From: a virus | DNA: 31,279 nucleotides | Strand: one strand, 5' to 3' | Virus record (IMG/VR): IMGVR_UViG_3300020202_000183 | Coordinates: 1-31,279 of that record | Shown here: in pieces, positions 17,323 through 30,942 of the stretch | How positions within the stretch are numbered: position 1 is the first letter of the stretch | How the letters are laid out: every line of letters starts with the position of its first letter | The notes under the pieces: model-generated | What the model saw: the letters and a program-made list of their open reading frames with translations, nothing else | Database searches by the model: none | Told to the model about the DNA's origin: nothing | Program-made: the position numbers and the translations under genes

Positions 17323-17926
17323 GCAGGACGAGCCCGGCGGTTACGAGCATGCCGCGCACATGCGCGACGATCGTCGGCGGCGCAGCGTCGGCCAGCACGT
17401 TGCGGGCGCCAGTGAGCTGCGCAACCATGATCGCGGCGAGCATGTCCGCGATCTCCTCTCGGCTCAGACCGGGTTCACCAGCATCCGCCCTTCGCTCGAC
17501 CACCGCGCCGATCGCAGCCAGAACTGGCTCGGTGAACTTCCAGCTGTCGACCCCGTGCCGGGCGATCGCCCGCTTGAGCAGCAGCTTGCCGCTCGGCGCG
17601 TCGGGGTTGCTCCGGATCACGCCGTGGCGGCGAAGGATGTTCAGCACGTGTTGTGCGGGCGGGTCTTCCATCGACAGCCTGCCCAGCGCGTGTGCCACCC
17701 AGCTCGCGGTGACGTCGAGACCCGTGGTTAGCTGGCCGCGCCAGCTTCCATTGCTCAGCTCGGCGACAAGCTTCTCCGAGCGCACAGCTTCGTCCGCAAG
17801 TTCCTGCAGGCATGGGCGTGGCAAGCGGATGTCGTAGCTCATCAGCGCCCGCTCGAGGTAAACGCGCGTTGTCGTGCTCAACGGAGTGACGGCATAAGCA
17901 AGCAGGCCGGCAAGAAACCGGATCAC
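17282..17926 (-). CDS. Hypothetical protein downstream of the nuclease
   Basis: A 214-residue helical protein starting MIRFLAGLLAYAVTPLSTTT, where the hydrophobic first part may associate with the membrane. The rest has no recognised domain; LRRHGVIRSNPDAPSGKLLL (about 110-130) is a possible DNA- or RNA-contact region. The GTG start at 17926 overlaps the nuclease stop and has GGGAGG upstream. The gene ends inside the last codons of the convergent repressor. Made together with a secreted nuclease within the lysogeny region, it may be expressed in the lysogen, but this is inference. Confidence 0.7.
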   Translation of the reverse strand: MIRFLAGLLAYAVTPLSTTTRVYLERALMSYDIRLPRPCLQELADEAVRSEKLVAELSNGSWRGQLTTGLDVTASWVAHALGRLSMEDPPAQHVLNILRRHGVIRSNPDAPSGKLLLKRAIARHGVDSWKFTEPVLAAIGAVVERRADAGEPGLSREEIADMLAAIMVAQLTGARNVLADAAPPTIVAHVRGMLVTAGLVLPIPAAPPVRPGPG

Positions 17927-18261
17927 CGGCGCCTCCCGCGCTTCTCCGCCAGCCCGGCCGCCACCATGGTGTGGCCGAGATCCCGCTCGCCGATCGAGCA
18001 GCGCGCCACCATGCGGGCATAGCGGTCGCGGGCGCGGGCTTCGCACACCACCAGCTGCTCGACGACCAATGCCTTGAGCGCGGCGGTGGCCTCGCTGCCG
18101 CCCGGCTCGCCACGCTCGGGGGCATGCGCGTTCTGCAATCGCACGCGCTGCTTGCCGATCAGCAGCGTGTCGCCGTCGATCACCCGGGCCGGGCCGCTGA
18201 TGGTGTCCGCGGCCGCCGCGGCGGACAGCAGCAGCCCGGCGGCAACCGTCAATGCGCGCAT
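17923..18261 (-). CDS. Secreted staphylococcal-nuclease-like protein
   Basis: A 112-residue thermonuclease-family protein. Residues 1-18 are a signal peptide (MRALTVAAGLLLSAAAAA), so the product is exported, probably to the periplasm. Key positions are RVIDGDTL (D29, D31), VRL (R41), APE (E49) and RYARMVA (R83), which match the catalytic Arg-Glu-Arg set. The usual Asp before APE is His46, and that residue normally helps bind calcium. It is shorter than S. aureus nuclease but close to other minimal members. Transcribed towards the repressor from the second control region, it may act against incoming DNA, as a lysogenic-conversion gene. Confidence 0.82.
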   Translation of the reverse strand: MRALTVAAGLLLSAAAAADTISGPARVIDGDTLLIGKQRVRLQNAHAPERGEPGGSEATAALKALVVEQLVVCEARARDRYARMVARCSIGERDLGHTMVAAGLAEKRGRRR

Positions 18262-18555
18262 TTGCCCAATCCTCGCGGCGTGCAACTGCTTGTCCCAAAT
18301 CGAATTTCGCCTGTTACACATTCGGGACATCAACCGGCGCATAAATGTGGCTTGCTGTTTCAGTCCGAAATGGATTAGGATGCGCCCCGCTCACCCCTGG
18401 CTGGGGGAGGGGCCGAGACGCCGGGCCGCGACAGTGCCCGACAAGACCCCGGGCCGGCGGTTCGCGCGGCGAGCTCGCGAGACCCCCCGCGGCAGTGCTG
18501 CCCTGCCGCCGGCCCTCAACGGTCCCGCTGTTGCTGGCGGGCCAGGGGTTCACAC
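18262..18555. promoter_or_regulatory. Second divergent control region and long leader of the rightward operon
   Basis: A rightward promoter is visible: TTGCTG (18352-18357), 18-bp spacing, TAGGAT (18376-18381). The dyad CAGTCC-N5-GGATTA (18361-18377), of the same type as in the repressor region, lies in its spacer. TGTCCC/GGGACA arms lie further left, towards the nuclease. The transcript would have a leader of about 165 nt holding a 10-bp inverted repeat, GGGCCGGCGG/CCGCCGGCCC (18451-18460 and 18506-18515), with smaller hairpins in the loop. That leader might serve attenuation or antitermination. Confidence 0.6.
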
Positions 18556-19064: not shown

Positions 19065-19346
19065 GCGCCTTTCCGCTCACGCCCGAGCAGCTCGCCGACA
19101 CCCTCCGCGCGATGCCGGAGGATTTCGAGCTGCACCCGCTCCACGCCTGCCTCTGCCCGATCGCCTGTGCATTGCGCGAGCGTGGCCATGTCGATGTCCG
19201 CGTGCATTCCGAGATCGCCGAGTTCGACGGGGACGCGGTCTTTCCTGCCGAACTGGGCGCAATCCTATGTCGACCAGGTCGACGGCATCCGCGGCACGAT
19301 CTCGCCCCTCGAGGCGCTGCGCCTGCTGGAGCAGGTGCTGGCATGA
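19061..19346 (+). pseudogene. Frameshifted early gene (hypothetical)
   Basis: The gene starts MSAFPLTPEQLADTLRAMPE and codes well up to EIAEFDG (around 19230). The frame in use then turns Arg/Pro-rich, while the plus-one frame gives a natural continuation, TRSFLPNWAQSYVDQVDGIR..., ending LEALRLLEQVLA with TGA at 19344-19346 coupled to the next ATG. Removing one base of the GGGG run (19229-19232) would join the two parts into a product of about 94 residues. As it stands, translation runs in frame into the next gene and makes a 184-residue fusion. It could be a real mutation, a sequencing error, or programmed frameshifting. No domain is recognised. Confidence 0.7.
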
Positions 19347-19615
19347 AGCCGCGCACCCTCGCCGCGCTCGAGGACGCGGCGCTGCCGTCGGGCCTGTGGC
19401 GCGGCCACAACGGCCGCTGGCACGGCAACGCCGGGCCGCACCACGCCAACGCCGTGATGGCGCTGGTCGGCGCCGGCTACCTCGCCATCGTGCCCGCCGG
19501 CGACCGCGCGGGCATCACCGCCGCGGGCCTCGCCGCGCTGGCCGAGTTCCATGGGCCCGACCCGCTCACGCCCGCCGAGGCGCTGACGATGCTCGCCGAG
19601 GTGCCGGCATCATGA
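19343..19615 (+). CDS. Hypothetical protein, paralogue copy A
   Basis: A 90-residue protein starting MKPRTLAALEDAALPSGLWR. Its first 62 residues are almost identical to the gene at 19860. The pattern (GLWRGHNGRWHG, then HHANAVMALVGAGYLAIVPA) looks like a small winged-helix fold: the final strand pair DRAGITAAGLAAL is typical of wing regions. The tail PDPLTPAEALTMLAEVPAS differs from copy B. Coupled by ATGA to both neighbours. A DNA-binding role is a guess. Confidence 0.7.
   Translation: MKPRTLAALEDAALPSGLWRGHNGRWHGNAGPHHANAVMALVGAGYLAIVPAGDRAGITAAGLAALAEFHGPDPLTPAEALTMLAEVPAS
19344..19533 (+). repeat. 190-bp direct repeat, copy A
   Basis: Matches 19861-20050 over 190 bp with two mismatches (at 19510 and 19528). 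The repeat covers the start and most of the coding part of two paralogous genes 517 bp apart. Such high identity at third codon positions points to recent duplication or gene conversion. Confidence 0.95.
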
Positions 19616-19863
19616 CGCGCACGCAGCGCCTGTGGATGCACCGGGCTTACATGGCTGGCGGCCTGGAAAGGACGCGCTTCGGGCTGTGGCGGCCCTGCGG
19701 CATTTCGTTCGGCGAGGGCTGTGCCCCGCGCACCGTCGAGACCTTGGCGCGCGCCGGCCTGGTCACCCTCGATCACGAAGTCGCCAGCAAGGCGAAGCGG
19801 GCGTGGCCGACCGTCGAAGGCGTTCACGCCGCGCGACGGATCGAGCGTGAGGGCTGGCTGTGA
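19612..19863 (+). CDS. Hypothetical protein between the duplicated genes
   Basis: An 83-residue protein starting MTRTQRLWMHRAYMAGGLER. The part CAPRTVETLARAGLVTLDHE followed by VASKAKRAWPTVEGVHAARR reads like a winged-helix: helix, helix, then a beta wing. This resembles the general layout of its two neighbours, so all three may be distant relatives. Coupled on both sides (ATGA and GTGA). Function unknown. Confidence 0.68.
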   Translation: MTRTQRLWMHRAYMAGGLERTRFGLWRPCGISFGEGCAPRTVETLARAGLVTLDHEVASKAKRAWPTVEGVHAARRIEREGWL

Positions 19864-20114
19864 AGCCGCGCACCCTCGCCGCGCTCGAGGACGCGGCGCT
19901 GCCGTCGGGCCTGTGGCGCGGCCACAACGGCCGCTGGCACGGCAACGCCGGGCCGCACCACGCCAACGCCGTGATGGCGCTGGTCGGCGCCGGCTACCTC
20001 GCCATCGTGCCCGCCGGCGACCGCGCCGGCATCACCGCCGCGGGGCTCGCCGAGCTCGCGCGCCATCACGGCCTCGGCGTGCTCGAGCAGCAGAAGGCGC
20101 CGGCGCATGGCTGA
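19860..20114 (+). CDS. Hypothetical protein, paralogue copy B
   Basis: An 84-residue protein that starts at GTG 19860 (MKPRTLAALEDAALPSGLWR), while copy A starts with ATG; the duplicated DNA begins at the second base of the start codon. Residues 1-62 equal copy A and the C-terminus is unrelated (ARHHGLGVLEQQKAPAHG). It overlaps the next gene by 8 bp. A small winged-helix DNA-binding protein is possible. Confidence 0.7.
   Translation: MKPRTLAALEDAALPSGLWRGHNGRWHGNAGPHHANAVMALVGAGYLAIVPAGDRAGITAAGLAELARHHGLGVLEQQKAPAHG
19861..20050 (+). repeat. 190-bp direct repeat, copy B
   Basis: Second copy of the 19344-19533 repeat, with differences at 20027 and 20045. It includes the start region of the second paralogue. 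Confidence 0.95.
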
Positions 20115-21365: not shown

Positions 21366-22589
21366 ATGCGGAACGTGGGGCAGCTCGACCTGAGGTTCCT
21401 CAACATCAAGCCCGGGCGCGGCGGCAAGCGCTATTTCTGGAAGCCGACGCCGGCGCTCCAGGCCGCCGGCTGGCGCTCGCAGCGGCTCGACGGCGCGGAG
21501 GCCGATCCGGCGGCGCGCGAGCTCGCCGCCTTCCGCGCCTGCGACGCGCGCAACAAGGAGCTCGAGCAGTGGCGCCGCGGCGCCGCGCCCGGCCACGCGC
21601 CGGCAAGGCTCAAGGGCGCGCAGCCCGGCACCGTCGCGGCGCTGATATCAGCCTATCGCAAGTCGCGTTTCTTCCGCGACCTGGCGGCGAAGACCCGGCG
21701 CGACTACGAGCAGTGCCTGGCGCTGATCGAGGAATGGGCCGGCGAGGATCCGGCGGCGTCGATCGACGCGCAGGACGCCGAGGAATTCTACAGCGAGATG
21801 CGCCCGGCCAAGCCGGCCATGGCCGCCGCGGTGATCCGCGTCGCCCGCCTGGTGTGGAACTGGGCGCCGCGCCTGCCCGGCGCGCCGAAGCTCGAGAAGA
21901 ACCCGTTCGAGAAGCCGGGCATCCGCTCGAACCGGCCGCGGCCGCGCATCTGGTCGCGCCAGGCGGTCGATGCCATGGTCGCCGCGGCCGACGCGCTCGG
22001 CTGGCACTCGATCGGCACGGCGATCGTGCTGAACGAATGGCTCGGCCAGCGCGAGGGCGACATTCTCAAGCTGCCGCGCGAGCTCGATCTGGTCGGCGAC
22101 CTGATCGTCGAGCAGAACAAGACCGGCGCGGTGGCGCCGCTCCCCATCTCCGTCGTGCCGGCGCTGATGGCGCGCCGCGGCGAGGAGATCGCCCGGCAGC
22201 TCGGCCGCCAGGCCGCCGCGAAGGTGGCGCCGATCGCGCTGCCGCCGGAGCTGGTGCTGCACGAGCTCACCGGCAAGCCGTGGAACGAGCACACCTTCCG
22301 CCACATGCTGGCCGAGCTGCGGTTCTACGCCGTCGTCGCCGCGGCGAACGCCGGCCAGGTCGAGCTCGCCCGCGAGCTCGACACCCTGCAGTTCAAGCAC
22401 CTGCGCCACACCGCGGTGACCCGCCTGGCCGAGGCCAACGTCAACGTCGAGCGCATCGCCGCGATCACCGGCCACAGCCTTGCGACAGTCAACCAGATCC
22501 TGGAGCATTACCTCCTGCGCACCAGGAAGCTCGCCCGCGGCGCCTTCGAGCAGCGCCTGGCGGCGGAAGCGAAGGAGCAGAATTCCTGA
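21366..22589 (+). CDS. int: Tyrosine integrase
   Basis: A 407-residue tyrosine recombinase that would insert the phage at attB and, with Xis, remove it. The C-terminal catalytic domain has R229 (WLGQREGDIL), H345 and R347 (KHLRHTAVT), H370 (TGHS) and the nucleophile Y382 (LEHYLLR). The N-terminal domain (about 85-165) contains the SAM-like core-binding part (LISAYRKSRFFRDLAAKTRR). ATG 21366 has GGGAGG upstream. The coding strand points to the att site 1.5 kb away. The terminal LAAEAKE is repeated at the end of the next gene. Confidence 0.93.
   Translation: MRNVGQLDLRFLNIKPGRGGKRYFWKPTPALQAAGWRSQRLDGAEADPAARELAAFRACDARNKELEQWRRGAAPGHAPARLKGAQPGTVAALISAYRKSRFFRDLAAKTRRDYEQCLALIEEWAGEDPAASIDAQDAEEFYSEMRPAKPAMAAAVIRVARLVWNWAPRLPGAPKLEKNPFEKPGIRSNRPRPRIWSRQAVDAMVAAADALGWHSIGTAIVLNEWLGQREGDILKLPRELDLVGDLIVEQNKTGAVAPLPISVVPALMARRGEEIARQLGRQAAAKVAPIALPPELVLHELTGKPWNEHTFRHMLAELRFYAVVAAANAGQVELARELDTLQFKHLRHTAVTRLAEANVNVERIAAITGHSLATVNQILEHYLLRTRKLARGAFEQRLAAEAKEQNS
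22553..22576 (+). repeat. 24-bp direct repeat, copy in integrase end
   Basis: An exact 24-bp sequence that encodes RLAAEAKE and ends in a ribosome-binding-type GAAGGA. The second copy is at 22924-22947, at the end of the following gene. In each case it stands shortly before the next start codon. Confidence 0.9.
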
Positions 22590-22963
22590 TGTCAGAACCG
22601 GCTTCGCTGACGGCGCTGATCGAGATGCTGGAGAAGGCAACGGGTCCGGCGTATGCCCTCGACTGCGAGATTGAAGACTGGCGCTACGCGCTGCTCGGGT
22701 GGGGAAAGCCGCTAGGGCAGCGCATCACGCCGCCAGCTTACACCGCCAGCATCGACGCGGCGCTGACGTTAGTGCCGGAGGGGGACGGCTGGCACCTGGA
22801 CACGGCGCGCATGGCCGACGGAACAGTCTATCGCTGTGTCGTGGGGCCGAGCATGGCGGCATGGGCCAAAACGCCCGCTCTCGCGCTATGCGTCGCGGCG
22901 CTGAATGCTTACCGCATCAAGGAGCGCCTGGCGGCGGAAGCGAAGGAAGGCGGGCAGGGATGA
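22589..22963 (+). CDS. Phage ABA-sandwich-like protein
   Basis: A 124-residue protein starting MSEPASLTALIEMLEKATGP. The segments YALDCEIEDWRYALLGWGKP, YTASIDAALTLVPEGDGWHL and MAAWAKTPALALCVAALNAY match the pattern of small phage proteins with an alpha-beta-alpha sandwich domain, whose function is not known. It starts on the last base of the integrase stop. It ends ERLAAEAKE, coded by 24 bases identical to the end of the integrase. Confidence 0.72.
   Translation: MSEPASLTALIEMLEKATGPAYALDCEIEDWRYALLGWGKPLGQRITPPAYTASIDAALTLVPEGDGWHLDTARMADGTVYRCVVGPSMAAWAKTPALALCVAALNAYRIKERLAAEAKEGGQG
22924..22947 (+). repeat. 24-bp direct repeat, copy in ABA-sandwich gene end
   Basis: Second exact copy of 22553-22576, 371 bp further on; it provides the GAAGGAAGG ribosome binding site for the GIY-YIG gene. 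Confidence 0.9.
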
Positions 22964-23469
22964 GCTCCCTTTGCTACTTGCCTGATGAGGCGGTTGCGCG
23001 CGCTGGCATGACGTTGGACGAGCTTATTAAGCTTGGCGCTCCGGTTATCCGATTAGGTAGAGCGAAGCGCTTTCCGAAGCTAGCGTTTGATCATTGGTTG
23101 GCTGGCGGCCCCACGCCGGCGCAGGGAGTGTCGAACTTGGAGTTGGCTCCGCATCCGGCGCTTCCGACGCCGTCAGAAGCTGCGCCACTTTCCGCGTCTT
23201 TCCGCCCTGGCGTGTATGTGATCACCGGCGGGAACCTCCAGAAGATCGGTGTTGCTGACCATCCGGATAGGCGCTTGCGAGCGTTGCAAACCGCGAACGG
23301 CGTGAGGCTCGTCTTGGTCTTTTTCCTCCGAACTCATCGCCGTGCTTTGGACGTTGAGCGGCAAGCACATAAAAGCTTGGACGCCTGGCGCCGAGAGGGC
23401 GAATGGTTCGAGGTTACAGCTGACGTAGCGGTGGCGACAGTGCTCAATGCGGCCGGCAAGCAGGGATGA
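22960..23469 (+). CDS. GIY-YIG-type (T5orf172-like) protein with N-terminal DNA-binding part
   Basis: A 169-residue protein. Residues 1-50 (MSSLCYLPDEAVARAGMTLD, then IRLGRAKRFPKLAFDHWLAG) look like an AlpA-type helix-turn-helix. Residues 83-155 form a GIY-YIG-family domain of the T5orf172/MUG113 type: GVYVITG (84-90), LQKIGVADHPDRRLRAL (93-109), E133 in DVERQAH, and GEWFEV (147-152). The canonical second YIG tyrosine is replaced by KIG, as is usual in this subfamily. The gene is noticeably richer in A/T, including codons such as TTG, ATT and GTT, than its neighbours, which suggests separate acquisition. It is coupled by ATGA upstream. Confidence 0.78.
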   Translation: MSSLCYLPDEAVARAGMTLDELIKLGAPVIRLGRAKRFPKLAFDHWLAGGPTPAQGVSNLELAPHPALPTPSEAAPLSASFRPGVYVITGGNLQKIGVADHPDRRLRALQTANGVRLVLVFFLRTHRRALDVERQAHKSLDAWRREGEWFEVTADVAVATVLNAAGKQG

Positions 23470-23834: not shown

Positions 23835-24040
23835 CCAACACCTGCCCGCGCCGCGGCCACGGCGGCTGCAACCTGGCCGAGCTCGGCGATCCCCTCTGTC
23901 TCCGCGAACCTGGCGGCTGCGCTCACCTGACCGCCCAGCAGAAGGAACGGCGCATGTTCCGCCTGCTCGCTGCGCGGTGCCGCGAAGCGCGCGCCAGCAA
24001 CCCGCTCTGGAACGAAAAAGCACGCAAAGTTCCCCAGTGA
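23831..24040 (+). CDS. Small Cys-rich protein, last gene of rightward operon
   Basis: A 69-residue protein starting at GTG 23831 (MTNTCPRRGHGGCNLAELGD). Four cysteines with a histidine in the first half (CPRRGHGGC, PLCLRE, GGCAH) may bind zinc. The C-terminal half is basic (QKERRMFRLLAARCREARAS). Its last codons overlap an inverted repeat that probably forms the operon terminator. Confidence 0.62.
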   Translation: MTNTCPRRGHGGCNLAELGDPLCLREPGGCAHLTAQQKERRMFRLLAARCREARASNPLWNEKARKVPQ

Positions 24041-24076
24041 TTTCCACTGTCGCACTTGTTCGCTCTGCGTGCTTTT
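24016..24076 (+). terminator. Hairpin at the end of the rightward operon
   Basis: An 11-bp perfect inverted repeat, AAAAGCACGCA (24016-24026) and TGCGTGCTTTT (24066-24076), encloses a second hairpin, CAGTG/CACTG (24035-24048). It begins within the last gene and ends in TTTT before CGTCC, so it could stop rightward transcription, and leftward as well. It also contains one candidate integrase arm site. Confidence 0.55.
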
Positions 24077-24243
24077 CGTCCGGATCGAGGAAATACCTGC
24101 CGCACAAGGACAAGTATGGTGGGCCGTGAAGGACTCGAACCTTCGACCCGCTGATTAAGAGATCGCGGGCGGCCCAGTGATTTCAATTTGCTGTCTCACT
24201 TCCGTGTCTACTAAGTCCTTGATCACCGCGTCAAGTGAGACAG
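24033..24243. other. Phage attachment site (attP) with candidate arm-type sites
   Basis: The core is the tRNA-Lys 3' fragment (24117-24161). On each side lies CCCAGTGATTTC (24033-24044 and 24173-24184), followed by CTGTCGCACTT (24047-24057) and CTGTCTCACTT (24191-24201). An inverted copy, AAGTGAGACAG, is at 24233-24243. This order of core plus repeated arm sites on both sides is typical of attP in tyrosine-integrase phages. The integrase gene is 1.5 kb to the left. Confidence 0.75.
24117..24175 (-). tRNA. Partial tRNA-Lys(CTT): 3' part, tRNA-like fold without D-arm
   Basis: Read on the minus strand, the anticodon-loop bases CTCTTAA and TCAGC are followed by a complete T-arm (GAAGG-TTCGAGT-CCTTC), acceptor strand CGGCCC and ACCA. 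This is the 3' part of a tRNA-Lys with anticodon CTT. The normal 5' half and D-arm are absent. However, the upstream bases GGGCCG can pair with CGGCCC, and CCCGC with GCGGG, giving a 59-nt tRNA-like shape. Most likely it is the attP copy of the target tRNA gene and not a working tRNA. Confidence 0.8.
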
Positions 24244-24324: not shown

Positions 24325-24954
24325 CTAGAGGGTCTCGCTGATAGCCGCCCTACGGTAGCCCGGGCACTTCACCTTGCGCCAGTCGCGGCCTTTGCCGGAG
24401 ACGTAGGGCCTATCGGAGCGCTTGGCGATGATCCCCTCGGCGCCGATCGCGCAGAGCGTGGCGAATACCCGCTCGCCATCGCCGGCGCTGTGGCTGGCGT
24501 AGAGCAGCGGCAGGCCGGATCCGGCCGGCTCGACTAGGCGGCGCAGCCGGTCCTTGCGCTCGATGAGCGGCAGCGCCCGGATGTCGCGGCCGCGCTCCAC
24601 CAGCAGGTCGAACACCACGTAGACCAGGCCGCGGCCGCGCGCCGCCTGTAGCGCCGGGAAGGAGCTGCGGCCGTGCGCGTCGAGCACGCAGATCTCGCCG
24701 TCGATCAGCGTGCCGGCGAGCCGGAGCGCGGCCAGCGCCCGCGGCACGTCGCCGAGGCGCTTGGTCCAGTCCTGGCCGGTGCGGGTGTAGAGCCTGGCCT
24801 GGTCGCCGCGCGTCGCGGCGATGCAGCGGTAGCCGTCGTACTTCACCTCGTAGATCCAGCTGTCGCCCAGCGGCACGCGATCGGCGAGCTGGGCAAGCTG
24901 CGGCGCGATGAAGGGCGGGAGCTCGGCGGGCTTCGGGCTGGCGGCGCGCGGCAT
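24325..24954 (-). CDS. Minimal ATP-dependent DNA ligase (adenylation domain only)
   Basis: A 209-residue protein of the LigD-type ligase family. Motif I EVKYDGYR (36-43) has the AMP-accepting K38. Other motifs are TRTGQDWT (57-64), IDGEICV (84-90), FDLL (115-118), EGIIAKR (173-179) and WRKVK (192-196). The protein ends 13 residues after motif V, so the OB-fold domain of usual ligases (about 100 more residues) is missing. It would seal nicks weakly, or with a separate partner, or serve as a nucleotidyltransferase. It is the last gene of the right-hand leftward block, next to attP. Confidence 0.82.
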   Translation of the reverse strand: MPRAASPKPAELPPFIAPQLAQLADRVPLGDSWIYEVKYDGYRCIAATRGDQARLYTRTGQDWTKRLGDVPRALAALRLAGTLIDGEICVLDAHGRSSFPALQAARGRGLVYVVFDLLVERGRDIRALPLIERKDRLRRLVEPAGSGLPLLYASHSAGDGERVFATLCAIGAEGIIAKRSDRPYVSGKGRDWRKVKCPGYRRAAISETL

Positions 24955-24973: not shown

Positions 24974-25498
24974 CTATTTGGTGAGGCTGGCTAGGATCTG
25001 ATCCTTGTCCTTGCTCGACCGGCTCGAGCCGAACTCGAAGCTGAAGGCGTCCTTGAGGCAGGCGCCGAAGATGCCGGCCACGGTGCTGATCAGGCCGACC
25101 GCCTCGGGCGGCATCTGGTTGCGGAAGTTCATGATCGCCAGGATGCAGGCGATCAGCCCGCCGGCGGCCGACAGCACCATGATGTCGGCGCGCCAGTTGC
25201 GGCGGCCGGCCTGGGCGAGCGCCACGTCACGCCGACGCGCATCCTGCCGGTCGGCAAGGTAGGCCCGTTCGGTCTCCAGCTCGATCGCCGCCATGTCCTG
25301 GCGGAAGCGCCAGAGCATCTCGGGGTTGGCGCGCAGCGCCTCGGCCGCCTCGCTCTCGCTCGACGTGCCGGTGACGCGCCTCGCCGTGTCGATCACCTGG
25401 CCGGCGACGTCGGCCGCCCTGTCGCCGGCGAACAGCCGGATCATCGACGGCGCGAACTCCGCCGCCAGGCTCAACGCGATCGGAATGAGCGGTGCCAT
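24974..25498 (-). CDS. Holin of the GTA 3TM type
   Basis: A 174-residue protein with three hydrophobic segments: 4-20, 105-124 (DIMVLSAAGGLIACILAIMN) and 132-150 (EAVGLISTVAGIFGACLKDA). It ends FEFGSSRSSKDKDQILASLT, characteristic of the three-transmembrane holins found in gene transfer agents and alphaproteobacterial phages. A charged helical loop (50-100) separates TM1 and TM2. It would form the membrane lesion that lets the endolysin out. A 24-bp palindrome lies 19 nt before the ATG. Confidence 0.8.
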   Translation of the reverse strand: MAPLIPIALSLAAEFAPSMIRLFAGDRAADVAGQVIDTARRVTGTSSESEAAEALRANPEMLWRFRQDMAAIELETERAYLADRQDARRRDVALAQAGRRNWRADIMVLSAAGGLIACILAIMNFRNQMPPEAVGLISTVAGIFGACLKDAFSFEFGSSRSSKDKDQILASLTK

Positions 25499-25543: not shown

Positions 25544-25957
25544 CTAGTAGCCGAACAGTCCCTGCGGCAGGCCGTGGTCGGCGCGCCGGTCGAGGTGCAG
25601 GAAGCTCTTGTTGACGCCGACCGACCAGCCCTCGGCGATCGCCAGGCGGGCCAGGTCGAGCGCGTAGCGGATGTCCGGCGTGGCGATGTCGATCGCGCAG
25701 GCGCCGGCGATGCCGTGCGGCGAGCTGTCGTAGATGTGCAAGCTGCGCGGATGGCCGCCGACCAGGTTGTTGCGCCGGAGCGTGCGGCAGCAGCTGTTGA
25801 CTTTCATCGGCCGGCCGAAGCTGATCCTGAGCATGGCGAGCGCCTGGGCGAAGCCGGGCGCGAGCCGCCCTTCGCGGGTGTCGCGGTCGGCGATCTCGAG
25901 GTGGGTGAACAGCACCTCGCTGCCGTCCGGCCGCCGGATGGTGAGATCGCCGTTCAT
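25544..25957 (-). CDS. M15-family peptidase (endolysin)
   Basis: A 137-residue peptidase that cuts peptide bonds in peptidoglycan to release phage. Zinc ligands can be assigned as H74 (RSLHIYD), D90 (ACAIDIA) and H121 (FLHLD), and the latter is next to D123. The VNSCCRTLRRNN segment (53-64) is the usual substrate-side element. No signal peptide is present, in line with release through the holin. ATG 25957 couples with the upstream membrane protein (ATGA); a longer reading adds Arg-rich sequence and was rejected. It is followed by the holin, forming a lysis cassette. Confidence 0.85.
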   Translation of the reverse strand: MNGDLTIRRPDGSEVLFTHLEIADRDTREGRLAPGFAQALAMLRISFGRPMKVNSCCRTLRRNNLVGGHPRSLHIYDSSPHGIAGACAIDIATPDIRYALDLARLAIAEGWSVGVNKSFLHLDRRADHGLPQGLFGY

Positions 25958-26217
25958 CGGCCGACCCCGCCGGGGCCGAGCAGGCCCCACAGCGCCTGCA
26001 CCTTCTCCCTTGCGGTCACCAGCTCCTGCTGCTGCGCCGCCAGCGTCTTCTCGTGCTGGTCGAGCCGCCAGTCATGATGCGCTACCTTGGCGCCGATCAC
26101 CTTCACGTCGCCGCGGATCTCGTTGCCGATCCACAGCACGCCGGCAACCAACGAGGCCAGCGCGGCGCGATAGACCCAGGTCGGCAGGTCGCCGTTCTTG
26201 CCGTTCCCTTCCGCCAT
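25954..26217 (-). CDS. Membrane-anchored coiled-coil protein, possible spanin or antiholin
   Basis: An 87-residue protein with one transmembrane segment (about 14-32: WVYRAALASLVAGVLWIGNE) and then a coiled-coil part (HHDWRLDQHEKTLAAQQQEL, about 47-66). A short cytoplasmic N-terminus, one membrane helix and a periplasmic coiled coil resemble an inner-membrane spanin (Rz-like). No overlapping outer-membrane partner gene was found, so this is tentative. It lies directly before the endolysin. Confidence 0.62.
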   Translation of the reverse strand: MAEGNGKNGDLPTWVYRAALASLVAGVLWIGNEIRGDVKVIGAKVAHHDWRLDQHEKTLAAQQQELVTAREKVQALWGLLGPGGVGR

Positions 26218-26236: not shown

Positions 26237-26746
26237 CTAAGAGATCTCGATCGGCTGCAGTGGCCAGTCCGCCGGCTGTCCCGCGAGTTTCAAGCCGAGC
26301 GCCTGCTCGATGTCGAAGGCGAAATCCCGCATGGCGCCGGCAAGCGCCTTGATCTCATCGGCGCTGAACAGATGCACCGTGCCGTCGAGCTCGGCATAGG
26401 GCACCGTGTTGGCGCCCTTCGGCAGGCCGAGCCCGTTCGCCAACCCGCTCAGGATCCCGCCGATGCGGCGCTCGGCCTCGGCATCCATCGGATAGATGCC
26501 GTCAAGCCCCGGGTTCGCGGCAAATACGACCAGCACGCCGGCCGCCAGCAGCGCGGCCGCCTCACCCGGCGCGGGGTTCGGTGCCGGCGGTGGCTCGAGC
26601 AAGTCGCCGTTGAGCGTCCAGCCCTCGCGCACCTCGTTGGCGACCTCGCGGAACTGCGCGGCGATGTCGGGGTGAAAGGGCGGCAGCGTGTCGGCGAGCA
26701 GGATCTCGCGAACCTCGCCACCCTGGATGCGGGCAAAGCGCGCCAT
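26237..26746 (-). CDS. Tail fibre partner with DUF4376-like C-terminus
   Basis: A 169-residue protein starting MARFARIQGGEVREILLADT. The N-terminal part (about 1-50) has the form seen in short tail-fibre assembly proteins. The C-terminal half matches the DUF4376 pattern: ERRIGGILSGLANGLGLPKG, then VPYAELDGTVHLFSADEIKA. The ATG overlaps the fibre stop (ATGA); the longer reading belongs to a different frame of the fibre gene. Probably helps fold or attach the adhesin. Confidence 0.7.
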   Translation of the reverse strand: MARFARIQGGEVREILLADTLPPFHPDIAAQFREVANEVREGWTLNGDLLEPPPAPNPAPGEAAALLAAGVLVVFAANPGLDGIYPMDAEAERRIGGILSGLANGLGLPKGANTVPYAELDGTVHLFSADEIKALAGAMRDFAFDIEQALGLKLAGQPADWPLQPIEIS

Positions 26747-27921
26747 CACTTGTACTCCTTCACGATGACCAGGCCGGCCGAGCCGGCGCCGCCGGGCTGG
26801 TTGGTGCCATCGTTCTCGCCGCCGGCGCCGCCAGAGCCGTAGTTGCCCGCGGCATTGCCGGCGCCGTTGTTGGCGCCGACGCCACCGCCGCCGAACTGCG
26901 ACGAGCCGCCCATGCCGCCGCGATCGGCCGCGCCGTTGGTGCCGGGCGCGCCGCGCATGTTGAGCGTGCCGCCGGAGCCGTCGCCGCCGACGCCGCCAAG
27001 CGCCGTGGCTGCGGTGCCCTTGCCGCCGCCGCCGCCGGTCGCCGAGCAGTGCGCGCCGAAGCTCGACGTGCCGCCGGCATTGCCATCGCCGCCAGCCGCC
27101 GCGCCAGCGGCGCCGGCGGCGCCGATCGTCACCGTCTCGGTCGCCCCCAGGCCTGCGGTGATGCGCTTGTAGGAAGTGCCGCCGGCACCGCCGCCGCCGC
27201 CGCCGAGCGCGCTGATGTTCGAGCCGCCGCCGCCGGCGCCGCCGCCGACCACCCAAACCTCGACCGCGGTGCAGCCGGCCGGCTTGTTCCAGGTGCCGGA
27301 GGCGGTGAACACCTGCACGCCCATCAGGACGCCGCCGGTGAGGCCGAGATTGGCCAGTGTGATCTCGAGCGTCGCCCGCGCGGTCGCCGCATCCGGATCG
27401 TCGAGCAGCGTGGCCATGAAGCCGGAGACCGGCTCGAGGTCGGCCGAGGTGCCGGCGGCGGCGATCGGATTGCCGTCGGCGTCATAGGCGGCGAACATCG
27501 AGGCGCGGTCGGCTTTCGCCGGCAGCTCGTCGATGTCCGCCGCGTCGCTGTCCGGCTGGCGCAGCGTGCGGCCGACCCGGGCCAGCGCCTGCTGCACCAC
27601 CACCATCAGCTTGTCGAGCGCGGCGTTCACCACCTCGGCCGGGAAGGCGTCGCCGTCGGCCAGCGCAGCCAGCTGCTTCGCCGGCACGTCGCGCACGATC
27701 ACCACCTCGGTATCGACCGCCGGCGGGGTCAGGAAGGTGACCTCGCCGCCGTCCGCGTCATCGACGCCGCTCACGGTGTAGTGCGTGGTCAGCGTCTTCA
27801 GCGTGCCGTCGACGTAGACCAGCAGATCGGTGTCGGCGAAGATCCGGTTGTCGTAGGTGAACGCCGCCGTCACCCCGTTGCCGATATAGCTCCACCGTGA
27901 GGTGGTCACCTCGACTGTCAT
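26746..27921 (-). CDS. Tail fibre/adhesin with Gly-rich C-terminus
   Basis: A 391-residue receptor-binding fibre. The N-terminus (about 1-140: SRWSYIGNGVTAAFTYDNRI, then VDGTLKTLTTHYTVSGVDDA) resembles the virion-binding domain of T7 gp17-like fibres. The C-terminal half, from VFTASGTWNKPAGCTAVEVW (about 204-223) on, is a glycine-rich repeat region (GGGG, GGAGG and GNAGG motifs) ending AGLVIVKEYK. Such regions form stacked polyglycine-II sheets in phage adhesins. The GGAGG ribosome site is 6 nt before the ATG. The upstream gap (27922-28006) holds a GCGCCGC/GCGGCGC hairpin (27933-27959). Confidence 0.8.
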   Translation of the reverse strand: MTVEVTTSRWSYIGNGVTAAFTYDNRIFADTDLLVYVDGTLKTLTTHYTVSGVDDADGGEVTFLTPPAVDTEVVIVRDVPAKQLAALADGDAFPAEVVNAALDKLMVVVQQALARVGRTLRQPDSDAADIDELPAKADRASMFAAYDADGNPIAAAGTSADLEPVSGFMATLLDDPDAATARATLEITLANLGLTGGVLMGVQVFTASGTWNKPAGCTAVEVWVVGGGAGGGGSNISALGGGGGGAGGTSYKRITAGLGATETVTIGAAGAAGAAAGGDGNAGGTSSFGAHCSATGGGGGKGTAATALGGVGGDGSGGTLNMRGAPGTNGAADRGGMGGSSQFGGGGVGANNGAGNAAGNYGSGGAGGENDGTNQPGGAGSAGLVIVKEYK

Positions 27922-28006: not shown

Positions 28007-30547
28007 TCACCGCACGACCTCGCTCGGGCGCAGCCAGAACGTCTGCGCGTTTTCCTTCTCGATGCGCCGCTCCATGCGGCGCAGGAAGCCGGGGTTGAGC
28101 GCCTCCTGCACCTGGTACAGCACCAGGTAGTCGAGCGCGGCGCGGGTGTAGAACAGGTTGGCGAAGGGGGTGTTGCCGACCGCCCACTTCAGGAACTGCG
28201 CGCGCGGATCGTCGCCCGATCGCGCGCGGTTGTAGAGCTCGGCGATGTCATCGACCTGGCCGAACACCGGCCCGGCAAGCGAGGCGAGCGCCGAGCGGCC
28301 GAAGCGGGAGTATTCGCCGAACAGGTAGTCGCCATAGATGCCGGCACCGCCGCCCTGCGCCAGCGCCGCGAGCCAGGTCTTGGGGTCGGCCGGATCGCGC
28401 GGCGTGCGGCCCTTGGCCAGGTCCTTCGCCGCCATCGACACGTAGCCCATGGCGGCGCCGGCGACGATCAGGTGCACGATGCCGGCGATCGCGCCGTAGC
28501 CGTCCTGGCCGTGGATCTGCCGCGCCCACACCTTGGTCACCACCGCGACCGGAAACGCCTTGAACTGGCCGACGAAGCGCAAGGCCTCGCCGAGCACGGT
28601 GCCGGGCTGGGTGCCGCGGCGCAGGATCGCCCGCTCGTTGGCGCCGGGCTGCAGCACCGCCGCCTCGCCGACATCGGCGATATAGGCGTGCAGCTTCAGC
28701 GCCAGGTCCTCGCGCAACCGGTCGCGATCGGCCGGCCGGATCTCCCGCTGCTCGCCGGGCTGGCCCGCCTCGAGGCGCAGCAGGTGATCGGTCTGCTCGT
28801 CGCTCAACCGCGTCGCCGCATCCGGCGTCAGGTAGGCGCGGCCGTCGGCCTGCTTCCATTCGACCTGCCGCAGCGCGTTCCATTCCTCAGGCCCGATGCC
28901 GAAGGCCTGCAGGTTGCGGCTGAGCTCCGGCGGCAGCGCCGCCCCGTCGATCGCCTGATGCTTGCCGAGGTGCCGCGCCAGCACGAGCTCGGCGCCGGCG
29001 CGCTGCGCGTCGGTCCAGTAGGTCAGCCCGGTTAGCTTGAAGAAGGTGTTGGCGATTTTGCTCAAGGTGCCCGGCGCGGTGTCGCCTGGGTCGAAGCGCG
29101 CGGCGATCGAGCGGCTCATGCCCTCGCCGCCGGCGCGCAGCAGATCCATGATCTCCCGCGTCTCGCCGTTGCCGCGGCCGCGGCCGATCGCCTGCAGGCC
29201 GTCGGCATAGCCCTCGAGGAAGCCGACGCCGTGCAGCTTCAGCTCCGACGCCTTCAGCACGGTGTCGTTGATCGAGCTCAGCAGCACGCCGCCGAGCTTC
29301 GCCATGCTCTCGACCGTGCGGATGCCGCTGGAGATCCGCGCGCCGAGGCGGTTGACCGGCATCATCGCCGTGCCGTCGAGCTCGGCGAAGCGGTTCATGA
29401 TGCCGTTGCGCTGGCCGTCGAGCCGGATCACCCCCTCGGGATCGGTGTCGCGGAACCGCTCGCCGAGCCACTTCAGGTCCGCCTCGAGCTCGGCCCTGGG
29501 GTTGGTGCCGAACTGCCGCATCAGCGCGGTGTTGCGCGCCGCCTGGGTCAGCTGCTGCAGAATGCTCTCGATCAGCGTGCCCTGGCCGAACTTCGCCTGG
29601 TAATCCATCCAGCTCTCGGCCGACTTGAAGTGCAGGACGCGCCCCTGGCTCAGCCGCTCGGCCAGGTTGCCCGGGCCGGTGAAGGCCGGATCCTTGAAGC
29701 CCTGCATGCCCTCGGGCGTGAAGTGCCGGCCGGTGATCAGCGCGTTGTAGACGCCGCGCAGGAACTTCTCCGGATCCGCCACCTCGGCCAGCGTGCGCTC
29801 CTGGTCGAGAGTGGCGAGCATGCTCTCGCGCCAGGCCGCGAAGCCCGCCCGGCGGATCTTGTCCGGGTCATGCGCGGTGCGGCTGACATAGCCGTCATAG
29901 CTGCCGATCCAGGCGCCGGCGTCGTTCAGCCGATCGACGCTCAAGCGCTGGTAACGGTGCAGCGCCTGGGCGATCTCCAGCACCTGCGGGTTGCCGGTGA
30001 CGCCCGGCTTGCCGTTCTCCCCGCGGCTGAGCTCGAACAGCTCGCGCGCGATCGCGCGGTCGACCGTGCCGGAGCGCACCGTTTCGAACAGCCCGGCGCG
30101 CTCGAGATCCGTGACCAGGCCGACGACATAGTCGCGGGTCAGCGCGCGGCCCTCGGCCTCGACGCTGAGGCGCGAGCCAGCGAACAGGCGCGCCGAGCCG
30201 ACCAGCTTGGCATAGAGCCCGACCACATAGCCGGGATCCTTGCCCGCCGCCGGCGCCGCCTCGTAGAACGCGCGCCGGCTGATGCGCCGGTTCAGGTTGA
30301 GGTAGGCGTTGCGCCGCTCGATCAGCGCCGCCTGCGCCGCTTCCTCGGCGAGCTCGCCGGCGGCCTCGGCCGCGCGCGCCTCGGCCGCCTTGAACGCCGC
30401 CGCGCCCTTCTTCAGGCGGAGCCGCGTGTCGATCGCCTCGAGCACGCGCAACGCCTCGGCGTCGGTCATCTCCCGCCCGCCGACGCCCTTCGCCGTGCGC
30501 TTGACGTCGCCGAGGCAGTCCTTGAGGGAGCGGTGACGGATGGCCAT
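28007..30547 (-). CDS. Large virion protein, probably internal/ejected
   Basis: An 846-residue protein starting MAIRHRSLKDCLGDVKRTAK. It is mostly helical. A hydrophobic segment near the C-terminus (GAIAGIVHLIVAGAAMGYVS) is flanked by AKDLAKGRTPRDPADPKTWL and by GGGAGIYGDYLFGEYSRFGR. Long proteins of this pattern occur near the tail genes of podovirus-like phages and are thought to be internal proteins ejected with DNA; that role is inference. ATG 30547 overlaps the stop of the upstream gene (ATGA). No enzyme motif is seen. Confidence 0.68.
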   Translation of the reverse strand: MAIRHRSLKDCLGDVKRTAKGVGGREMTDAEALRVLEAIDTRLRLKKGAAAFKAAEARAAEAAGELAEEAAQAALIERRNAYLNLNRRISRRAFYEAAPAAGKDPGYVVGLYAKLVGSARLFAGSRLSVEAEGRALTRDYVVGLVTDLERAGLFETVRSGTVDRAIARELFELSRGENGKPGVTGNPQVLEIAQALHRYQRLSVDRLNDAGAWIGSYDGYVSRTAHDPDKIRRAGFAAWRESMLATLDQERTLAEVADPEKFLRGVYNALITGRHFTPEGMQGFKDPAFTGPGNLAERLSQGRVLHFKSAESWMDYQAKFGQGTLIESILQQLTQAARNTALMRQFGTNPRAELEADLKWLGERFRDTDPEGVIRLDGQRNGIMNRFAELDGTAMMPVNRLGARISSGIRTVESMAKLGGVLLSSINDTVLKASELKLHGVGFLEGYADGLQAIGRGRGNGETREIMDLLRAGGEGMSRSIAARFDPGDTAPGTLSKIANTFFKLTGLTYWTDAQRAGAELVLARHLGKHQAIDGAALPPELSRNLQAFGIGPEEWNALRQVEWKQADGRAYLTPDAATRLSDEQTDHLLRLEAGQPGEQREIRPADRDRLREDLALKLHAYIADVGEAAVLQPGANERAILRRGTQPGTVLGEALRFVGQFKAFPVAVVTKVWARQIHGQDGYGAIAGIVHLIVAGAAMGYVSMAAKDLAKGRTPRDPADPKTWLAALAQGGGAGIYGDYLFGEYSRFGRSALASLAGPVFGQVDDIAELYNRARSGDDPRAQFLKWAVGNTPFANLFYTRAALDYLVLYQVQEALNPGFLRRMERRIEKENAQTFWLRPSEVVR

Positions 30548-30942
30548 CAATCGTCCTCCACCAGGCGCGGCATGACGCTGAGGTCGATGTAGGGGCCGCC
30601 GCCGAGGTGGTATGACCACACGAGGCGGCCATGCGGCTTGGCGCCGGGACAGCCATTAAGGAAGTAGTCTGGGTTCGCTGCGCCTTTGGTGTCGCGGATG
30701 TAGGCGCAGGGCACGACCTGCTCGGCCGCCGCCTTGATCGCATCGGCAAGCTCGCGCGCTGGCACAGCGTCGCGCGTCCAGGGAACGGCTATCACGTCGA
30801 AGTCACGCCGCAAGCTGCCATGCACGCCCAGCGCATAGCCGCACTTGCGTGCCGCCTCGCGGATCCTTGGCTCCAGCTCCGGCCAGAGTTTCGCTGAGCG
30901 CTCCAGCCAGCGCACATCAGGTTGAGGGTCGGTCGCAGCCAT
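30547..30942 (-). CDS. Conserved phage protein with nucleotidyltransferase-like GS...D.D signature
   Basis: A 131-residue protein. VHGSLRRDFDVIAVPWTRDA (about 40-59) resembles the GS...D.D element of nucleotidyltransferase folds. The C-terminal part contains YFLNGCPGAKPHGRLVWSYH and GPYIDLSVMPRL. I know this pattern from phage hypotheticals in tail/virion regions. Catalysis is not shown; the fold may be inactive. Coupled to both neighbours by ATGA junctions. Confidence 0.65.
   Translation of the reverse strand: MAATDPQPDVRWLERSAKLWPELEPRIREAARKCGYALGVHGSLRRDFDVIAVPWTRDAVPARELADAIKAAAEQVVPCAYIRDTKGAANPDYFLNGCPGAKPHGRLVWSYHLGGGPYIDLSVMPRLVEDD

Follow-up and report, generated by a model that had tools for sequence, protein, structure and literature searches.

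The 31,279-nucleotide stretch analyzed here (the window), which is the whole of virus record IMGVR_UViG_3300020202_000183, very probably contains the attachment site (attP) by which a temperate podovirus-like phage would integrate at tRNA-Lys(CTT), with a tyrosine integrase encoded nearby, putative arms for integrase binding, and a putative IHF bend site. The comparisons described below give good support to the view that this is an ordinary, well-known kind of phage attachment site in a well-preserved state. A literature search retrieved no paper on the phage itself. The record is linear and the genome is incomplete, with tail genes missing.

The common core of attP lies on the minus strand at positions 24117 to 24161 and consists of the 3′ half of tRNA-Lys(CTT), beginning with the first base of the anticodon loop and ending with CCA. 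An exact-match search found the 45-nt core in eight stretches of GTDB genomes, and the same 45-mer had no exact match in other viral contigs. The tRNA-Lys(CTT) 3′ part noticed in a preliminary description of this DNA is present letter for letter, and the search for bacterial genes with the same 3′ end that had been proposed there yielded seven whole ones, since ARAGORN reported a complete tRNA-Lys(ctt) in seven of the eight stretches. Identity to the bacterial tRNA 3′ part extends through CCA over all 45 nt, as is usual for an attP in a tRNA gene, and ARAGORN predicted no whole tRNA in the window. The eighth stretch (L006, from the Armatimonadetes MAG UBA8783) contains the same 3′ half at about positions 2051 to 2095, without the 5′ part of the tRNA and behind a foreign 5′ flank. 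The same MAG also carries a whole tRNA-Lys(ctt) in another stretch (L009), so the half site in L006 is probably the far end of an element integrated in that phylum.

The integrase gene is on the plus strand at positions 21366 to 22589 and encodes a predicted tyrosine integrase of 407 amino acids, with the likely start near 21366 having been set by alignment to the integrases of relatives. The protein matched a PHROG integrase family with an E value of 2.3e-20, and its match to Pfam PF00589 was below the cut-off (24.1 versus 27.1 bits). Residues Arg231, Lys254, Arg349, His372, and Tyr384 (numbered by the first row of the alignment) are invariant in 13 sequences, and a tyrosine integrase with its catalytic residues is therefore encoded close to the core. 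In the HxxR box, the first His is replaced by Lys in the window and mostly by Met in the relatives. A T5orf172/MUG113-type, GIY-YIG-like protein is encoded at positions 22960 to 23469, between the integrase and attP. In locus L053, too, the integrase and the tRNA-Lys half site have a homolog with 39% identity between them.

Single-sequence scans with the integrase (in genomes and viral contigs) and the portal protein (in viral contigs) recovered no close relatives. More distant ones were reached with the pattern of the tRNA-Lys(CTT) 3′ half, followed by a scan with the integrase alignment. Among the matches listed, homologs of the window integrase adjoin tRNA-Lys(CTT) in 33 viral entries, near-duplicates included; identity to it is about 40%, and about 42% for the best by tblastn. 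The integrase gene points to the 3′ end of the tRNA in 29 of these 33 listed entries, as it does in the window. Late virion genes on the 5′ side of the tRNA and the integrase on the other side, which is also the arrangement of the window, were found in 9 of the 33 listed entries (L024, L079, L131, L087, L038, L096, L089, L026, and L092). These nine carry homologs of the fibre and/or the internal virion protein, and PHROG confirmed the virion protein in all four of the nine that were scanned.

The best 80 of the 298 relatives found with the integrase alignment were used to survey target sites. A tRNA-type site with CCA was present within 4 kb in 51 of these 80 loci, including 26 at Lys(CTT), 8 at Thr(CGT), 5 at Thr(TGT), 4 at Lys(TTT), and eight at others. 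The targets were counted by hand with duplicate records kept, and the 29 loci without a site include ones that end just past the integrase. A pattern search gave 105 half sites and 46 sites with a D arm among the matches listed, duplicates and the window included; the simple D-arm pattern misses some D arms and flags some half sites as full. For example, ARAGORN (run on L232) showed that the sites in L097/L179 are half sites despite the call made with the simple pattern.

Three exact copies of CTGTCnCACTT surround the core and are candidate arm-type integrase sites. One is on the integrase side at positions 24047 to 24057 on the plus strand (+104, counted from the start of the core in the direction of the tRNA), and the other two are on the late-gene side, at positions 24191 to 24201 on the plus strand (−40) and 24233 to 24243 on the minus strand (−80). 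The three sites, two direct and one inverted, had been pointed out in the preliminary description, and all of them have 0 mismatches. With at most one mismatch allowed, four sites occur in the window, compared with a mean of 1.03 in shuffled sequences. Leaving aside GC-simple sequences, no other 11-mer with a single free position has three copies within 200 bp anywhere in the window, and such triples occurred in local shuffles with a mean of 0.33.

Arm-like sites were also found at comparable places in the relatives. Sites that match the pattern GTNNNACTT and share the orientation of the window’s site at 24047 to 24057 lie at +102 to +107, and L190 has an arm-like site at −40 whose orientation agrees with that of 24191 to 24201. 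L154, L178, L211, and L024 have one at −81 that is oriented like 24233 to 24243. The orientations of all three sites in the window are those seen at the corresponding places in relatives. A pattern-free repeat search in the relatives revealed clusters near −81, −40, +91, +105, and +115, several of which resemble the window’s site. The GTNNNACTT pattern, which was derived from the repeats of the relatives after these had been seen, occurs 27 times in 34 attP regions of the family, where the remainder of these loci would predict 1.33 occurrences. Its peaks in these regions are at −81, +92, +104 to +107, and +115, the window’s own sites being at −80, −40, and +104, and only 10 of the 34 regions contain at least two such sites. 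The assignment of the repeats as putative arm-type sites is thus supported mainly by the enrichment of a pattern picked post hoc and by the matching positions and orientations. Judged by sequence and position, repeated candidate arm-type sites occur on both sides of the core, as in attachment sites of the lambda type. The earlier reading of the region as an attP with arm-type sites likewise gains support from the integrase family, the tRNA, the arm-site positions, and the similar site sequences of the relatives.

The same description had listed two direct repeats. These are an exact pair of CCCAGTGATTTC on the plus strand, with one copy at positions 24033 to 24044, adjoining the arm site at 24047, and the other at 24173 to 24184, close to the arm site at 24191. 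The pair exists as described but says little by itself, since chance alone yields such pairs in a GC-rich window of 31 kb; 33 similar 12-mer pairs, mostly GCC repeats, occur in the window, and locally shuffled windows gave a mean of 2.7. A 14-bp inverted repeat with T runs encloses one of the arm sites (24016 to 24076) and may possibly form a two-way terminator between convergent transcripts. It was not reported by a terminator scan with a loop limit of 8, and a short-loop terminator at 24016 to 24076 was rejected, being absent from the scan output.

An IHF-like site, YAANNNNTTGATW, is located on the minus strand at positions 24181 to 24193, which is −32 to −20 from the anticodon loop, and matches the consensus at 7 of 9 positions. 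Its position is conserved in relatives, as judged from 99 half sites, the window among them, that remained after 104 half sites at tRNAs of all kinds with CCA were thinned. The tetramer TTGA, the end of the IHF-like consensus, has its first base exactly 25 nt ahead of the anticodon loop in 30 of the 99 half sites; no other position has it in more than 6. Against this consensus, 23 of the 99, including the window, score at least 7/9 at this fixed place, and at most 1 of 99 did so at five control offsets (−60 to −12). A second IHF-like site directly past CCA scores at least 8 in 29 of the 99 half sites, compared with 1 at a control offset; directly downstream of CCA in the window this site of the relatives is absent, and the best score is 4/9. 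On the two sides of the window’s core, the IHF-like scores are thus 7/9 at −32 to −20 and 4/9 just past CCA. Another IHF-like match with one mismatch, GATCAAGGACTTA, lies on the minus strand at positions 24212 to 24224 and is not significant alone, because the window has two such matches. The tRNAs whose anticodon loop is occupied by members of the integrase family vary (Lys, Thr, Arg, and Met), and the IHF-like TTGA is often 25 nt away, which suggests that retargeting between tRNAs may occur under a fixed att layout.

In the proposed scheme, the integrase encoded at 21366 to 22589 would catalyze recombination between the host gene and the 3′ half of tRNA-Lys(CTT) carried by the phage. The crossover is placed in the anticodon loop because identity to the host gene starts there. 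Through the 45-bp identity, a whole tRNA-Lys would be restored where the prophage ends on the integrase side, and the displaced 3′ half would come to lie at the opposite prophage end. The three CTGTCnCACTT sites may be bound by the N-terminal domain of the integrase as arm-type sites, and the site at −20 to −32 may serve as the IHF bend site. Sequence identity, positions, conservation, and the existence of integrated and free relatives are observed; protein binding, the exact crossover, the host, and the activity of this copy are inferred.

Integrated relatives occupy the same tRNA gene. In each of G245, G246, and G247, one whole tRNA-Lys(ctt) is accompanied by a single 3′ half that points the same way, at distances of 37,765, 37,652, and 45,359 bp, respectively, and TTGA is found 25 nt upstream of the half in all three. 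RodA/FtsW and penicillin-binding transpeptidase genes, which are bacterial by family and have no PHROG matches, adjoin the whole tRNA in G245 (locus L152), and in L157, at tRNA-Lys(TTT), genes for gyrase A and two cyclophilins are in the corresponding place. Two tRNA bases differ between the 3′ halves at the prophage ends of G245 (L233 and L240), which indicates that phage-borne and host-borne halves are not always identical. In G234, the first and last 119 bp are identical and contain a half site with phage flanks on both sides, with the tail genes before attP and the integrase after it. Members of the integrase family therefore occur both integrated in tRNA-Lys and as a self-closing genome. 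An integrase search found no integrated copy of the phage itself in six genomes bearing the exact 45-mer.

The window has phage genes on both sides of attP, as had been stated before. The terminase, portal, protease-like, and head protein genes follow each other on the minus strand, and the last of these, the major head protein gene (3 to 617, by PHROG), is truncated by the left end of the record. From the right end, the minus strand encodes an internal virion structural protein (phrog_684, 28007 to 30619), a tail fibre (26746 to 27921, by PHROG), an endolysin of the peptidase M15 type (25544 to 25990, by PHROG and Pfam), and an ATP-dependent DNA ligase (24325 to 24954, by Pfam), which is the nearest gene on the late side; attP and then the plus-strand integrase follow. 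Of the late genes named earlier on the right, the ligase, endolysin, and fibre are borne out, and the internal virion protein joins them. The holin was not confirmed, as the protein at 24974 to 25498 matched only PHROG families of unknown function and that at 25954 to 26217 had no Pfam match. The ligase is very short (209 amino acids), and its Pfam match is limited to the central adenylation domain. Two observations concern the early region. A 199-nt direct duplication with 98% identity (19344 to 19542 and 19861 to 20059, 517 bp apart) covers parts of two small neighboring ORFs and is likely a recent gene duplication, and a staphylococcal-nuclease-like protein (PF00565) is encoded on the minus strand at 17923 to 18342.

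Because an intact attP is flanked by phage genes on both sides, the sequenced DNA is not a single integrated prophage, which agrees with the earlier reading; virion DNA, a circle, a concatemer, or a tandem prophage would fit. The overlap of the contig ends that had been suggested as a check was not found, as the 31,279-base record has no terminal repeat. The two ends of the window would fit a circle of about 38 kb from which the tail and internal virion part is missing, because Pseudomonas phage vB_PaeP_Tr60_Ab31 has 8.4 kb of tail and internal virion genes in the corresponding gap, between the head protein gene and the gene of the virion protein that is 41% identical to that of the window. 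As prophages, the relatives G245 and G246 measure 37.8 and 37.7 kb, respectively.

It is rather improbable that the site joins two tandem prophages of a lysogen instead of belonging to a free genome. According to the recombination scheme, a second phage integrating at an attL or attR already present would leave a joint identical to attP, and a linear, incomplete record is compatible with such an origin. However, no bacterial gene was recognized among the window proteins scanned, the order of late genes, attP, and integrase recurs in nine related entries among the matches listed, and the relative G234 closes on itself across attP. Free genomes are the simpler explanation of this gene order and of the closure of G234.

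An additional role of the core and its flank as RNA or as a folded single strand has very little probability. The 15-nt phage flank TGGGCCGCCCGCGAT and the tRNA half together (24117 to 24176, minus strand) can form a D-arm-less tRNA-like fold with a 7-bp acceptor stem, a free CCA, and the anticodon and T arms (−28.5 kcal/mol, z score of −3.95), which might, besides acting as attP, be transcribed as a tRNA-like RNA or serve as a folded single-strand signal. When the half was kept fixed, an equal fold arose with only 3 of 5,000 random 15-mers from the window and 7 of 5,000 shuffles, and GGGCCG is the 5′ end of real tRNA-Lys genes. However, 733 of 5,000 flanks of 30 nt folded equally well, and 84 distinct half sites among the matches listed had a median p of 0.57, so the fold is no family trait. 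The window, at about 0.0006 to 0.0014, is the best of these 84 listed half sites, which is near chance expectation. The Rfam tRNA model matched the T arm only, with 13.2 bits against a cut-off of 29, ARAGORN found no tRNA, and no sigma-70-like promoter was found. With no tendency across the 84 listed half sites, the fold was rejected as a general attP feature, and in the window it is probably a product of chance in GC-rich DNA, because the relatives lack it. It is equally doubtful that the phage-side flank has been shaped to form, with the tRNA half, a D-arm-less tRNA mimic that has an acceptor stem and leaves the CCA free; if it were so, integration would put the mimic and the rebuilt true tRNA at opposite ends of the prophage, and the mimic might regulate transcription or act as a competitor for tRNA enzymes. 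Least probable of all is an attR-like or degraded leftover, a tRNA fragment remaining from an earlier integration and no longer used. Partial, non-functional tRNA genes are often present in prokaryotic gene sets, according to an excerpt of PMC9897764, but here the 45-nt core is perfect, the integrase frame is open with its catalytic residues, the arm-like and IHF-like sites are at the places typical of the family, and phage genes lie on both sides.

The exact 45-mer occurs in two gammaproteobacterial MAGs, one Magnetococcales MAG, and five stretches of Fimbriimonadales/Armatimonadetes MAGs. Integrase searches in the genomes of two orders gave no match in 109 genomes of one and a single weak match (36%) in 113 genomes of the other. 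The IHF-like site gives a weak hint of a proteobacterial host.

With the window, a clean attP becomes available for an integrase family whose layout, across the viral records compared, stays the same at different tRNA genes. Identity begins at the anticodon loop, an IHF-like site lies about 25 nt away, and arm-like sites stand at fixed distances. In the best 80 of 298 relatives, the targets are mostly Lys(CTT), with Thr(CGT), Thr(TGT), Lys(TTT), and a few others. Because the layout is constant while the tRNA targets differ, the family is useful for predicting which hosts and attachment sites uncultured phages use and for studies of target change by integrases.

In attP of the lambda type, a tyrosine integrase acts on a site with a core, arm-type sites, and IHF sites. 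The window resembles lambda in having arm-like repeats on both sides of the core, an IHF-like site at a fixed place, and a tyrosine integrase gene nearby, a likeness drawn from sequence comparison. Unlike in lambda, the core is a tRNA 3′ half, the arm sites differ in sequence, and the integrase gene ends 1.5 kb from the core. As described in an excerpt of PMC10865867, attP and attB of the tRNA type usually share 30 to 45 bp, including the tRNA 3′ half, and have putative arm-type sites, with exceptions in which a 10-bp core is accompanied by a phage tRNA. The same excerpt gives mycobacteriophage Boilgate a 43-bp core at tRNA-Lys-TTT with an Int-Y attP. The window is similar to this type, with a tRNA-Lys 3′ half in the 30- to 45-bp range as its core, a tRNA that would be rebuilt, and putative arm-type sites, but it differs from Boilgate, as far as that excerpt describes it, in the tRNA-Lys isoacceptor and the phage group. 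It shares with Fionnbharth, an example of tRNA-dependent lysogeny, an attB in a tRNA-Lys gene; according to the excerpt (PMC10865867), Fionnbharth has a core of about 10 bp and a whole phage tRNA, whereas here a 45-bp core is found in a record without a tRNA gene. With a core of 45 bp, not about 10, and no tRNA gene in the (incomplete) record, tRNA-dependent lysogeny was rejected for the window because of the long core.

Among sequenced phages, Burkholderia phage BcepC6B (NC_005887) has the terminase closest to that of the window (40.5%). Pseudomonas phage vB_PaeP_Tr60_Ab31 (NC_023575) encodes an internal virion protein 41% identical to the window’s and shares the order terminase, portal, protease, head protein, tail, internal virion, fibre, and integrase, but the window integrase matched 10 records, and Ab31 is not among them.
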